A program made the translations under genes and the position numbers. From Sphingomonas sp. Leaf412 (GTDB taxonomy: Bacteria > Pseudomonadota > Alphaproteobacteria > Sphingomonadales > Sphingomonadaceae), in contig NZ_LMQP01000003.1 of NCBI RefSeq assembly GCF_001425405.1, positions 492,264 through 556,263 on the forward strand: a stretch of 64,000 nucleotides of DNA, in the 5' to 3' direction. Shown here one piece after another: positions 6,161 through 45,774 of the stretch (position 1 is its first letter; each line of letters starts with the position of its first letter). The notes beneath the pieces were generated by a model. It saw nothing but the letters and a program-made list of their open reading frames with translations. It did not search any database and was not told the origin of the DNA.

Positions 6161-6267
6161 CCCCCACCCCGGCAAACGCCGGGGTCCAGTTGGGGGACGC
6201 AGGTGATGAGGGACGGCGCGTCGTAACGGCGGCCTTCCCGACTGGACCCCGGCCTTCGCCGGGGTGG
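6161..6267. repeat. Palindromic repeat, family B (ACCCCGGC...GCCGGGGT hairpins)
   Basis: Two GC-rich hairpins of the same family, ACCCCGGC-AAAC-GCCGGGGT and ACCCCGGC-CTTC-GCCGGGGT, sit in inverted orientation about 50 nt apart between the dehydrogenase and ligase genes. GTCCAGT and ACTGGAC flank the inner sides. A related element is embedded in frame in mutL (44472-44545), and a degenerate part occurs near 30205. The ligase ribosome-binding site begins just after the right end. Confidence 0.8.
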
Positions 6268-30118: not shown

Positions 30119-30291
30119 GGATCTGGGGCTCGGGAGGATGGGCTGGGCGGCGTGTAGGCGCGGCGGGGAGCGGGGGCAATGATGCGCCGCCCTGCGCCGC
30201 CGTTCCCCGCCGAAGGCCGGGGTCCGGTCGGGAAGGCCGCCATGAGCCGGGCGCCCCGTCCCGAGACCGGCCCCCGTCGGTAGACGCACCC

Positions 30292-43424: not shown

Positions 43425-45245
43425 GTGTCAATACGCCGTCTCCCCTCGCATCTGGTCAACCGTATCGCCGCCGGTGAAGTGGTGGAAAGACCGGCCAGCG
43501 CGTTGAAGGAACTGGTGGAGAACGCGCTGGACGCGGGCGCCACGCGGGTCGGAATCGTGCTCGCCGCGGGCGGCGTGGAGCGGATCGAGGTGGCCGACGA
43601 CGGCCGCGGAATGACCCCCGGGGACATCCGCCTCGCGCTCGAACGCCACGCCACCAGCAAGCTGCCGACCGACGATATCGAGGCGGTCGCGACGCTCGGT
43701 TTCCGGGGCGAGGCGCTGCCCTCGATCGCGTCGGTCGCGCGCGTGACGATCGAGAGCCGCCCGAACGGCGCGGAAGGCTGGGCGGTCACGATCGACAATG
43801 GCGCGACGGAGCGCGAGGGGCCCGCCGCGATGCCGCCGGGCACGCGCGTGGTGGTCCAGGGCCTGTTCGCGCGCGTGCCCGCGCGGCGCAAGTTCCTGCG
43901 GTCGGCGCGGGCCGAATACGGCGCCTGCATGGATGTGGTGAAGCGGCTGGCGATGGCGCGGCCGGAGGTCGCCTTCTCCGTCGAGCACGACGGCCGCCGT
44001 GCCCTGTCCGTACCCGCCGCTGCCGATCGCCCGGAACGCGTCGCCGCGCTGACCGACCGCGCGCTGATCGACAATTCGGTCGCGATCGATTTCGTGCGCG
44101 ACGGCCATGTGCTGGGCGGCGTCGCGGGCCTGCCGACGTTCCATCGCGGCGTGGCGGACCACCAGTATCTGTTCGTGAACGGTCGCCCGGTGAAGGACCG
44201 GCTGCTGATCGGCGCGATCCGCGGCGCCTATGCCGAGATGATGCCGCGCGACCGCCACGCGGTCGTCGCGCTGTTCCTGGACGTGCCCGCGACCGAGGTG
44301 GACGTGAACGTCCATCCGGCGAAGACCGAGGTCCGCTTCCGCGACCCGCAGCTGGTCCGCGGCCTGATCGTGTCGGGCCTGCGCCGCGCGCTCGACGCCG
44401 CCGGGCACCGGGTGGCGCATGGGGCGCCGGCGGATGTGATGGCGTTGTGGCGATCCGAAGGCACCGTTTTCCCCGACCATCCCGGCGAAAGACGGGATCC
44501 AGGTGCGCCCTCCCCCGACTGGACCCCGGCGTTCGCCGGGGTGGAGAGCGACGGGGGAGGGGAGGGGCTTTCCCGCCATCTCCACGATCCCCGACCCACC
44601 TTCTTCGCCGCGCCCCCCGCGGCGCGCGCCGAACCCGCGTGGGCGCCACCCCCCGACACGCACGCCCACCCCATGGGCGTCGCGCGCGGGCAGGTGGCGA
44701 AGACCTATATCGTCGCCGAGGCGGAGGACGGCCTCGTGCTGGTCGACCAGCATGCCGCGCACGAGCGCCTCGTCCTCGAACGCATGCGCCGCGCACTGGC
44801 GGGCGGGCGCGTTGCGGCGCAGGCGCTGCTGATCCCCGAGGTCGTGGAACTGGACGAACCCGCCTGCGACCGGCTGGAGGCGCGCGCCGGGGAGCTGTCC
44901 GACTTCGGCCTCGACCTCGAACGCTTCGGCCCGCGCGCCATGCTGGTCCGCGCGACGCCCGCGCTGCTGGGACAGGCCGACCCCGCCGGCCTCGTCGCCG
45001 ACCTGGCCGACGAACTGGCCGCCTATGACGAGGCGTTGTCCTTGCGCGAACGCCTCGACGCGTTGGCGGGCACGATGGCCTGCCACGGCTCCGTCCGCGC
45101 GGGCCGCGTGCTGTCGGTCGCGGAGATGAACGCGCTGCTCCGCGAGATGGAGGCGACCCCGCATTCGGGCCAGTGCAACCACGGGCGACCGACGTGGGTG
45201 AAGCTGGCGAATTCGGACATTGAAAAGCTTTTTGGTCGAAGATGA
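43425..45245 (+). CDS. mutL: DNA mismatch repair protein MutL
   Basis: GHKL-ATPase coordinating mismatch repair between MutS and downstream nucleases; 606 residues. N-terminal motifs: LPSHLVNRIAAGEVVERPAS, LVENALDAGA, DDGRGM, LERHATSKL, GFRGEALPSI and NVHPAKTEVRF. The C-terminal dimerisation domain has VDQHAAHERL and ACHGSVRAG; the QX2(L)DXXE endonuclease motif of some MutLs is not apparent. Start is GTG 43425 (MSIRRLPSHL). A palindromic repeat inserted in frame encodes about residues 350-374 in the linker. Divergent from mreB. Confidence 0.97.
   Translation: MSIRRLPSHLVNRIAAGEVVERPASALKELVENALDAGATRVGIVLAAGGVERIEVADDGRGMTPGDIRLALERHATSKLPTDDIEAVATLGFRGEALPSIASVARVTIESRPNGAEGWAVTIDNGATEREGPAAMPPGTRVVVQGLFARVPARRKFLRSARAEYGACMDVVKRLAMARPEVAFSVEHDGRRALSVPAAADRPERVAALTDRALIDNSVAIDFVRDGHVLGGVAGLPTFHRGVADHQYLFVNGRPVKDRLLIGAIRGAYAEMMPRDRHAVVALFLDVPATEVDVNVHPAKTEVRFRDPQLVRGLIVSGLRRALDAAGHRVAHGAPADVMALWRSEGTVFPDHPGERRDPGAPSPDWTPAFAGVESDGGGEGLSRHLHDPRPTFFAAPPAARAEPAWAPPPDTHAHPMGVARGQVAKTYIVAEAEDGLVLVDQHAAHERLVLERMRRALAGGRVAAQALLIPEVVELDEPACDRLEARAGELSDFGLDLERFGPRAMLVRATPALLGQADPAGLVADLADELAAYDEALSLRERLDALAGTMACHGSVRAGRVLSVAEMNALLREMEATPHSGQCNHGRPTWVKLANSDIEKLFGRR
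44472..44545. repeat. Palindromic repeat, family B, inserted in frame in mutL
   Basis: The left hairpin TCCCGGC-GAAA-GACGGGA and right hairpin ACCCCGGC-GTTC-GCCGGGGT, with GATCCAGG and ACTGGACC on the inner sides, match the intergenic element at 6161-6267. The encoded peptide is hydrophilic (HPGERRDPGAPSPDWTPAFA) and sits between the ATPase and dimerisation domains. Confidence 0.8.
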
Positions 45246-45366
45246 ACGGGTTATGGATGGGGGGCATTCAAACTGTAAGTCGGGCGTCCGAGGTTGGAAC
45301 GTTGGTCGCTAACGCCCAATTGTGGACTTTCTCGTACGCCACTACGCCGGCGCGACAGGGGACGAC

Positions 45367-45663
45367 ATGGTAAAGGCGTTTCGGGTAATATTTCTACTCG
45401 CCTTCTTGCCCGTGGCTGCGTACGCGCTATTTTTCGTGAGCTATGCGCTTTTCAATGCGACCTACTGGCTCGAAACGAGTACGGTGCGGGCAAACGCGCT
45501 TTTACTTGGGACGCTTACCCTTGCACTCGCTATGGGTAGCTTTTCGTTTCGACGCGGTATGCTCGAACAAAACCTGGTACTAGCCGTTCTGCTGTTAATG
45601 GCTGCCGTCGCCGAACTATGGTTTTTGATACCGACGACTAACCTGTCGCTTGGGCAATTGTAG
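45367..45663 (+). CDS. Small membrane protein of unknown function
   Basis: 98-residue protein with three to four hydrophobic segments (FRVIFLLAFLPVAAYALFFV, ANALLLGTLTLALAMG, LVLAVLLLMAAVAELWFLI). I do not recognise the family. Codons such as CTA, TTA and TTT are common, unlike neighbouring genes, and the whole stretch 45246-45832 is visibly richer in A/T. The ATG follows CAGGGGACGAC; a GTG at 45322 would add 15 residues. Possibly an acquired gene between mutL and coq4. Confidence 0.6.
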   Translation: MVKAFRVIFLLAFLPVAAYALFFVSYALFNATYWLETSTVRANALLLGTLTLALAMGSFSFRRGMLEQNLVLAVLLLMAAVAELWFLIPTTNLSLGQL

Positions 45664-45774
45664 CGGCTGCTATCCACCACTCCCGGACGATGAGCGAAAT
45701 GTGTTTATCGCTTCCAGTTGGGCGAAGCTGGCGCATGGCGATATCGAGCGATTGTCTGGCCGGCGTTAGCGTTG

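Follow-up and report, generated by a model that had tools for sequence, protein, structure and literature searches.

The window analysed here, a stretch of 64,000 nucleotides from Sphingomonas sp. Leaf412, carries a mutL gene whose inter-domain linker includes a palindromic repeat in the open reading frame. The features on which the following argument depends are these, F1, F2 and F3 being the three palindromic families distinguished below:

43425..45245, + strand: mutL open reading frame, 606 aa, GTG start (NCBIfam NF000953, 859 bits)
43494..44393, + strand: N-terminal ATPase region of MutL (Pfam HATPase_c_3, residues 24-132; DNA_mis_repair, 207-323), conserved
44448..44648, + strand: residues 342-408, disordered portion of the linker between the domains (no secondary structure, pLDDT < 50)
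44472..44545, + strand: F1 palindromic dimer of the CGTC REP type, encoding residues about 351-374
44477..44502, + strand: left REP unit, stem ATCCCGGC / GACGGGAT with one mismatch, loop GAAA, tail CCAG
44503..44518, + strand: spacer of 16 nt separating the two REP tails
44519..44544, - strand: right REP unit in opposite orientation, perfect 8-bp stem ACCCCGGC / GCCGGGGT
44553..44569, + strand: possible, borderline F2 relic, at the place where S. corticis has F2 (alignment with loci L080 and L148)
44688..45110, + strand: C-terminal dimerisation/endonuclease domain of MutL, residues 422-562 (Pfam MutL_C, 156.9 bits), conserved
6161..6267, no strand assigned: intergenic REP dimer of the same type, used as reference (unit pattern, folding; fails the codon-model coding test)

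The MutL endonuclease model NF000953 spans residues 2-606 of the window protein, and the reading frame 43425-45245 continues across the element without a stop. An initial annotation of this DNA had proposed an in-frame insert of about 25 residues between two intact domains; the insert amounts to about 24 residues (351-374), the frame is open throughout, and Pfam and NCBIfam matches lie on either side of it, so that both parts of the proposal are borne out. An AlphaFold2 model from 30 aligned sequences, of modest quality overall (mean pLDDT 67, pTM 0.51), gives residues 342-408 a pLDDT under 50 and no secondary structure. Beyond the mutL stop at 45245, the region 45190-45770 holds a second mutL 3' end (WAKLAHGDIERLSGRR, followed by a stop). 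About 470 bp lie between the two 3' ends, with a GC content of 0.51-0.59 versus 0.72-0.77 before, and this low-GC stretch contains a 113-residue hydrophobic open reading frame (45322-45663) with no NCBIfam match; S. corticis has a single mutL 3' end in the stretch examined. The stretch after mutL has the look of a short insertion by which the mutL end was restored.

The element in the linker is 74 bp long. Its arms (44477-44502 and 44519-44544) are 85% complementary and 16 nt apart, its predicted fold reaches -43.1 kcal/mol (z = -3.5, with 1 of 200 shuffles equally good), and the left unit folded alone retains its outer six pairs. The pattern describing the unit has six matches in the window versus 0.04 expected from dinucleotide shuffles, and these include 6167-6189 / 6242-6264 and 44480-44502 / 44519-44541; the match between the double hairpin at 44472-44545 and the intergenic repeat at 6161-6267, already pointed out in the initial annotation, is thus confirmed in both halves. 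The peptide encoded by the insert runs from about D351 to E374 and reads HPGERRDPGAPSPDWTPAFAGVE.

Many intergenic copies in the same genome follow one plan, CGTC-stem-4-nt loop-stem-CCAG and then its mirror image, with the tails facing each other. The mutL copy keeps the stem (with one mismatch on the left), the loop and the tail, and has lost the CGTC tag, the corresponding positions reading GACC on the left and CTCC on the right in unit orientation. Given that many intergenic copies do carry CGTC/GACG, the mutL copy is best regarded as a degenerate member of a CGTC-type family. Other properties of such REPs are found as well: 8 bp and a 4-nt loop in the right unit, eight positions with one mismatch and a 4-nt loop in the left, a CCAG tail in both mutL units, and dispersal and dimeric arrangement in the organism's own genome. 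The first two stem positions, A-T pairs in CGTC-type REPs, read AT...AT in the left mutL unit; the right unit reads AC...GT (A-T in the first only), as do many intergenic copies. The F1-like pattern occurs at 120 forward and 112 reverse places of the genome versus 8 and 4 for the reversed control, these places being in part a sister palindrome with TCCCCGC stems. That sister palindrome, TCCCCGCGAAGGCGGGGACCCAG, for example at G000:C1:75163-75185, is present in at least 12 unchanged copies and is perhaps a younger REP family. A further F1-like unit in the window (30205-30227, - strand, two mismatches) fails the codon-model coding test. A search for the Y1 transposase PF01797 gave no match in the genome, with a positive control in 5 of 14 named genomes; since none was found, the mobility step is unsupported, and the result agrees with CGTC REPs apparently having no dedicated transposase of their own (PMC3733652). 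Assignment to the REPIN/GTAG-REP type with a RAYT was considered and rejected, there being no GTAG at the listed unit ends (by eye) and no PF01797. On the evidence of its sequence, then, the window object is a CGTC-type REP dimer, predicted to be translated as part of MutL.

The nearest relative found, S. corticis (L080; L numbers denote loci and G numbers genomes), has a MutL 87% identical to that of the window and alignable on both sides of the element (93% over the 495 tree columns of the two domains), the stretch itself being different. The alignment with homologues suggested in the initial annotation bore out the expectation only in part: the flanks are intact in S. corticis, but the site is not empty and holds a different palindrome. 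No clean empty site for the window F1 copy was found among the MutL relatives, and because the nearest relative has another palindrome at that place, insertion into F2, replacement of F2 and recombination are indistinguishable. The F2 score of the window linker, 24.0, equals the 99.8% null value and does not rise above it; insertion of the F1 copy exactly inside an F2 hairpin was considered and is not claimed, the putative F2 relic lying just at threshold. The cleanest case of insertion at this site is instead provided by a third palindrome, F3, nested in F2 (L132 vs L131; L134 vs L059). An insert in mutL stands, but the picture of a lone insertion into a conserved linker does not, the site being hypervariable and occupied by at least three palindromic families.

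This variability was surveyed across the genus. A MutL match was obtained in 59 of the 61 genomes of the genus, completeness being 81-83% in the remaining two, and 139 MutL loci were assembled, including 80 named loci of the 117 found; after 18 identical linkers and one locus without a single open frame (L079) had been dropped, 120 non-identical linkers remained, mostly from Sphingomonas. With thresholds set at 99.8% of 2400 dinucleotide shuffles (20 per linker), at which about one false positive is expected (0.2% per test, four tests), F1 was detected in 6 linkers (L021, which is the window locus, L026, L047, L058, L061 and L135), F2 in 25 and neither in 89, and F3 is nested in 5 of the 25 linkers with F2; these counts leave out additional C-run/G-run hairpins such as those of L051, L121, L122 and L150. 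When the whole open reading frame was scanned at a stricter cut, 30 of the 120 genes were positive and every one of them had a linker match. L080 alone had one extra match just before its linker, an F1b match of score 30 ten residues upstream, which was taken as chance. In L079 (G026, a single-contig genome) two overlapping pieces make up mutL, the smaller of them containing a TGA; the gene is either a pseudogene or the product of a sequencing error.

A family-wide survey (146 of 149 genomes with a MutL match; 109 loci examined, 108 of them from other genera) extended the comparison, with L354 left out as coming from the same genome as L058. F1 was found in 0 of the 108 loci from other genera, so the residues whose conservation in distant relatives lacking the repeat would have spoken against an insertion are not seen there. 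An F2-like score above 27 was obtained in 8 of the 108 (L357, L370, L377, L402, L403, L406, L421 and L460), the linker peptide of L377 being that of L157. The likeness to F2 is only distant in L402, L403 and L421, which come from more distant genera and have weak scores of 28-35; the linkers of L403 and L421 hold a differently arranged peptide, PPLTPPVPGGGP, and the weak F2-like sequences of all three are perhaps a fourth family.

On a tree built from the two MutL domains with the linker excluded (120 rows, quick IQ-TREE, SH-aLRT support), the occurrence of the palindromes is scattered. The six F1 carriers occupy six separate tips, corresponding to six changes, at least five of which are forced by starred branches; F2 requires 12 changes, at least nine of them forced, with gains and losses lumped together, and is nevertheless clustered, 0 of 500 shuffles being as low. 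The window MutL pairs with that of S. corticis (99*), an F2 and not an F1 carrier, and F1 is absent from the other 31 MutLs of the smallest well-supported larger clade. Likewise, the F1 carrier L135 (Sphingomonas sp. PAMC 26605) sits among F2 carriers with nearly the same MutL protein, its close kin L133 (S. glacialis) and L055 (whose linker equals that of the S. glacialis locus L140) both carrying F2. Exchange of mutL between species may also have contributed to this distribution, being compatible with a tree that is built from MutL itself.

The reading frame is common to the carriers of each family. All six carriers have the right F1 unit in phase 2, and the five with a detectable left unit (L026 being the exception) have that one in phase 1; the units fall at linker residues 40-66 and give variants of HPGEGRDP and PAFAGVT. 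Three frames are open in a consensus left unit and two in a right one, so that, if the events were independent, such agreement would hardly arise by accident. F2 has the consensus CCCCTCCCC-TTCA-GGGGAGGGG-TT-GGGGTGGGG and is read as PSPSGEGLGWG / PNPSPEGEG or variants, both in MutL and in one valine-tRNA ligase (by eye). F3, in the mutL genes of L037, L057, L132, L134 and L157, consists of 64 nt replacing 4 nt of the F2 arm, a net gain of 60 nt, or exactly 20 codons, in each of the five. The element ends in inverted repeats whose copy-to-copy differences are matched (GCC/GGC, TTC/GAA, GTC/GAC), and in L132 it has one open frame per strand. In L037 it lies in the other orientation, in a frame where the L132 form would have a stop; by eye, CTG stands where that stop codon would be, with a matching change in the opposite arm. 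In all six F3 copies inspected (the five in mutL and L463) the element lies at the same place inside the F2 hairpin. The L463 copy, which is outside mutL at the same F2 place, measures 63 nt, a net gain of 59, and is crossed by no long open frame, so that the frame-keeping length of 20 codons is a property of the mutL copies alone. A genus search recovered F3 in 1 of 201 genomes, a lower bound, as its 6-nt inner loop does not fit the mutL copies; the plasmid collection gave no F3 match, and Rfam gave no match at gathering thresholds.

Four other linker-bearing genes were compared, and in these the palindromes are scarce. F1 or F2 was detected in 17 of 58 genus genomes for MutL, 0 of 44 for DnaX, 0 of 38 for IF-2, 1 of 37 for FtsK and 6 of 38 for RNase E. 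The single FtsK match (score 29) is close to the 5' end of the open frame; four of the six RNase E matches lie at the first residues of the stop-to-stop frame, judged to be before the start, and the remaining two are weak, with scores of 30 and 33 in Arg-rich stretches. The control sets comprise the 30 best-scoring loci per gene plus extras drawn from MutL-positive genomes only, and the discordant pairs including these extras, 16:0 (DnaX), 16:0 (IF-2), 15:0 (FtsK) and 14:3 (RNase E), thus come from a design that favours MutL. Among unselected genomes the ratio of MutL-positive/control-negative to MutL-negative/control-positive was 8:0 for IF-2 (28 genomes, p 0.008) and 9:0 for FtsK (29, p 0.004), and not significant for DnaX (2:0, 28 genomes, p 0.5) and RNase E (8:3, 27 genomes, p 0.23), the p values taking no account of relatedness. 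Within mutL itself, the F2 core occurs nine times in 17.7 kb of linker (58 genomes) and not at all in the 96.5 kb of remaining open reading frame; the 0.16 occurrences expected in the linkers derive from 825 places in 22 genomes, 92.5 Mb together, 16 of these genomes being MutL-positive and chosen in part on that ground.

The count of units inside genes that the initial annotation proposed for the whole genome was made on part of the units. Outside mutL, 0 of 52 distinct F1 units examined in the organism's own genome, a subset of its F1-like places, pass the coding test, and 0 of 64 do so at a lower cut. The codon model was trained on DnaX, IF-2 and FtsK, and its calibration of 599/600 was obtained on those same training genes; in 400 kb of G022, 0 of 23 F1/F2 units pass as coding versus 314 of 600 random positions. 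As the test passes only 52% of random positions, the 0 of 52 is a bound and not proof. Among 34 units at F2 sites in 22 genomes, three pass as coding, one in mutL and two in a single valine-tRNA ligase gene. This gene (L178, 265-2940, - strand) contains an F2 dimer in frame, with the peptide frame as in MutL, and its NCBIfam match is interrupted close to the insert, at residue 441/442. MutL is thus not the unique host, F2 being in frame in one valS as well.

Purifying selection acts on both domains of the carriers measured. In hand-picked pairs, dN/dS lies at 0.026-0.129 for the ten pairs with a carrier versus 0.015-0.095 for the six non-carrier pairs. The window pair has the highest value of all in its N-terminal part, 0.129, with 0.063 in the C-terminal part, and the former could hint at slightly weaker constraint. 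Carriers have longer linkers, with a median of 112 residues versus 96, partly by definition; the extra residues of carriers number 4 to 36. That linker length can matter is indicated by E. coli MutL, in which roadblock bypass disappears when the 100-residue linker is reduced to 60 (PMC6902014).

The kind of event, a REP inside a gene, is already known, and in sphingomonads too, which the survey of these repeats cited next names by abbreviations. CGTC-tagged REPs, in families CGTC-1 to CGTC-4, were described by Di Nocera, De Gregorio and Rocco in 2013 (PMC3733652), together with intragenic copies, many encoding 20-30 residues, in sphingomonads among other hosts and in repair genes among others: those for excinuclease ABC proteins, UvrD, DNA polymerase I, RecBCD and DnaE2. 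The main text of that paper does not mention mutL; its authors left undecided whether intragenic REPs matter to the protein and speculated that REPs in repair genes affect mutability. F1 has in common with the published CGTC REPs an 8-bp stem, a 4-nt loop, a CCA tail, facing dimers with unlike stems, and mostly intergenic dispersal with occasional in-gene copies, whereas the tag is missing from the mutL copy. Further, the published REPs hit genes of the same category at different sites, except for recB of two Xanthomonas (PMC3733652), whereas in MutL one site of one gene has been occupied repeatedly by three families.

Similarities to other systems are partial. The comparison with Rickettsia palindromic elements drawn in the initial annotation (Ogata et al. 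2000, via PMC2229807) holds for in-frame insertion of a translated palindrome into the gene of a conserved protein, and Di Nocera et al. (PMC3733652) count RPE-4 and RPE-6 among the CGTC superfamily. It fails for length, these elements having 105-146 bp and the mutL element 74 bp, and the mutL host belongs to a free-living genus. F2 resembles the G/C-rich intrastrand triplex motifs termed TMECO (Holder et al. 2015, PMC4666352) in its order of C-block, G-block and G-block. By eye, it does not fit the TMECO pattern CCCTCNCCC N3-6 GGGNGAGGG N3 GGGNGAGGG, its second loop being of 2 rather than 3 nt and its third block reading GGGGTGGGG; unlike TMECO, it often occurs in dimers and lies inside mutL and one valS. 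The main text of that paper contains no word starting with 'Sphingo'. F3 is similar to bacterial MITEs that fuse in frame, such as ERIC/RU-1 and Correia (PMC2229807), in that its ends are inverted, hairpins lie within it, each strand has one open frame and the element inserts in frame in mutL, but in the present material it was seen solely inside F2 hairpins.

In light of these observations, it is probable that selfish palindromes repeatedly land in the disordered, length-tolerant linker of MutL and stay there as spacer peptide. In the window, a CGTC-type REP dimer, a non-autonomous dispersed repeat, would have landed in the part of mutL that encodes the disordered linker, having arrived by transposition or by template-switch copying, and would have been retained owing to an uninterrupted frame and a hydrophilic peptide. 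More broadly, the MutL linker is probably a recurrent landing or retention site in the genus and the family, occupied several times, by the F1 REP, by the triplex-like F2 and by F3 nested in F2, with the inserts presumably acting as passive spacers that lengthen the linker and leave catalysis unchanged. The near-freedom of four other linker-bearing genes is not easily explained by passive tolerance alone, and four genes are few. A stronger version, put forward tentatively as a possibility, is that the linker in Sphingomonas and its kin is a docking site, in which palindromes of unrelated families take up one gap in one frame, displace each other, become nested and serve as exchangeable spacers tuning mismatch repair. 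If so, part of a repair protein would have been made from selfish DNA repeatedly, and its tether length would be set by spacer modules.

Doubtful, in turn, is the proposition that the palindromes have been co-opted, that is, selected because a longer or softer tether or an mRNA hairpin at the domain border alters mismatch repair, for example through a changed passage of MutL past obstacles on DNA. Recurrence at one place in one gene and in one frame per family, the Gly/Ser-rich composition, the longer linkers and the abolition of roadblock bypass by the E. coli linker cut from 100 to 60 residues (PMC6902014) would fit it, but F1 and F2 are both missing from 89 of the 120 linkers, the tree displays frequent losses and replacements, and the measured pairs with and without a carrier differ little in the selection acting on the two domains. 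It is unlikely that each family derives from a single ancient insertion, later lost or overwritten in most species, with place and frame owed to common descent. The six F1 carriers do agree in frame and nearly in place, and F2 is clustered on the tree as in none of 500 shuffles. Yet each of the six stands at a tip of its own, L135 has carriers of F2 and not of F1 as its closest kin, scores of 45 out of a possible 54 are still reached by the F1 units of L021 and L061, and the MutLs of L021, L047 and L135 differ from those of their sisters by 0.29-0.93 synonymous changes per site.

By analogy with the suggestion about REPs and mutability, in-gene palindromes might promote deletion or frameshift in mutL and so give rise to transient mutators. 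Several genes of replication and repair are indeed reported to contain REPs (PMC3733652), rearrangement in E. coli is associated with G/C triplex motifs similar to F2 (PMC4666352), and one of the 139 loci (L079, G026) is without a single open mutL frame. Such a switch nonetheless appears very unlikely, given purifying selection in the measured pairs and F1 scores in L079 that are marginal, 28-29 over the whole locus; the 120 linkers come from open frames by construction and so cannot show breakage. Imitation of hairpins by GC-rich low-complexity codons would be conceivable in a GC-rich genome, where G/P-rich linkers yield C- and G-runs, but chance of this sort is scarcely credible against six matches where 0.04 are expected, 2400 shuffles, near-consensus copies with loop and tail as in the intergenic repeats, and control linkers that are negative almost throughout.

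The open-licence PMC literature searched gave no report of palindromes in the MutL linker, and within the searches made, what appears to be new is the repeated, same-frame entry of three families of palindromes into the sphingomonad MutL linker. A linker hit several times by three families in one frame amounts to a set of replicated natural experiments in the passage from selfish DNA to protein. Finally, natural pairs with closely similar MutL domains (L135 vs L055/L133; L132 vs L131; L134 vs L059) allow any effect of the linker on mismatch repair to be measured, and the case also bears on the suggestion that REPs in repair genes affect mutability.
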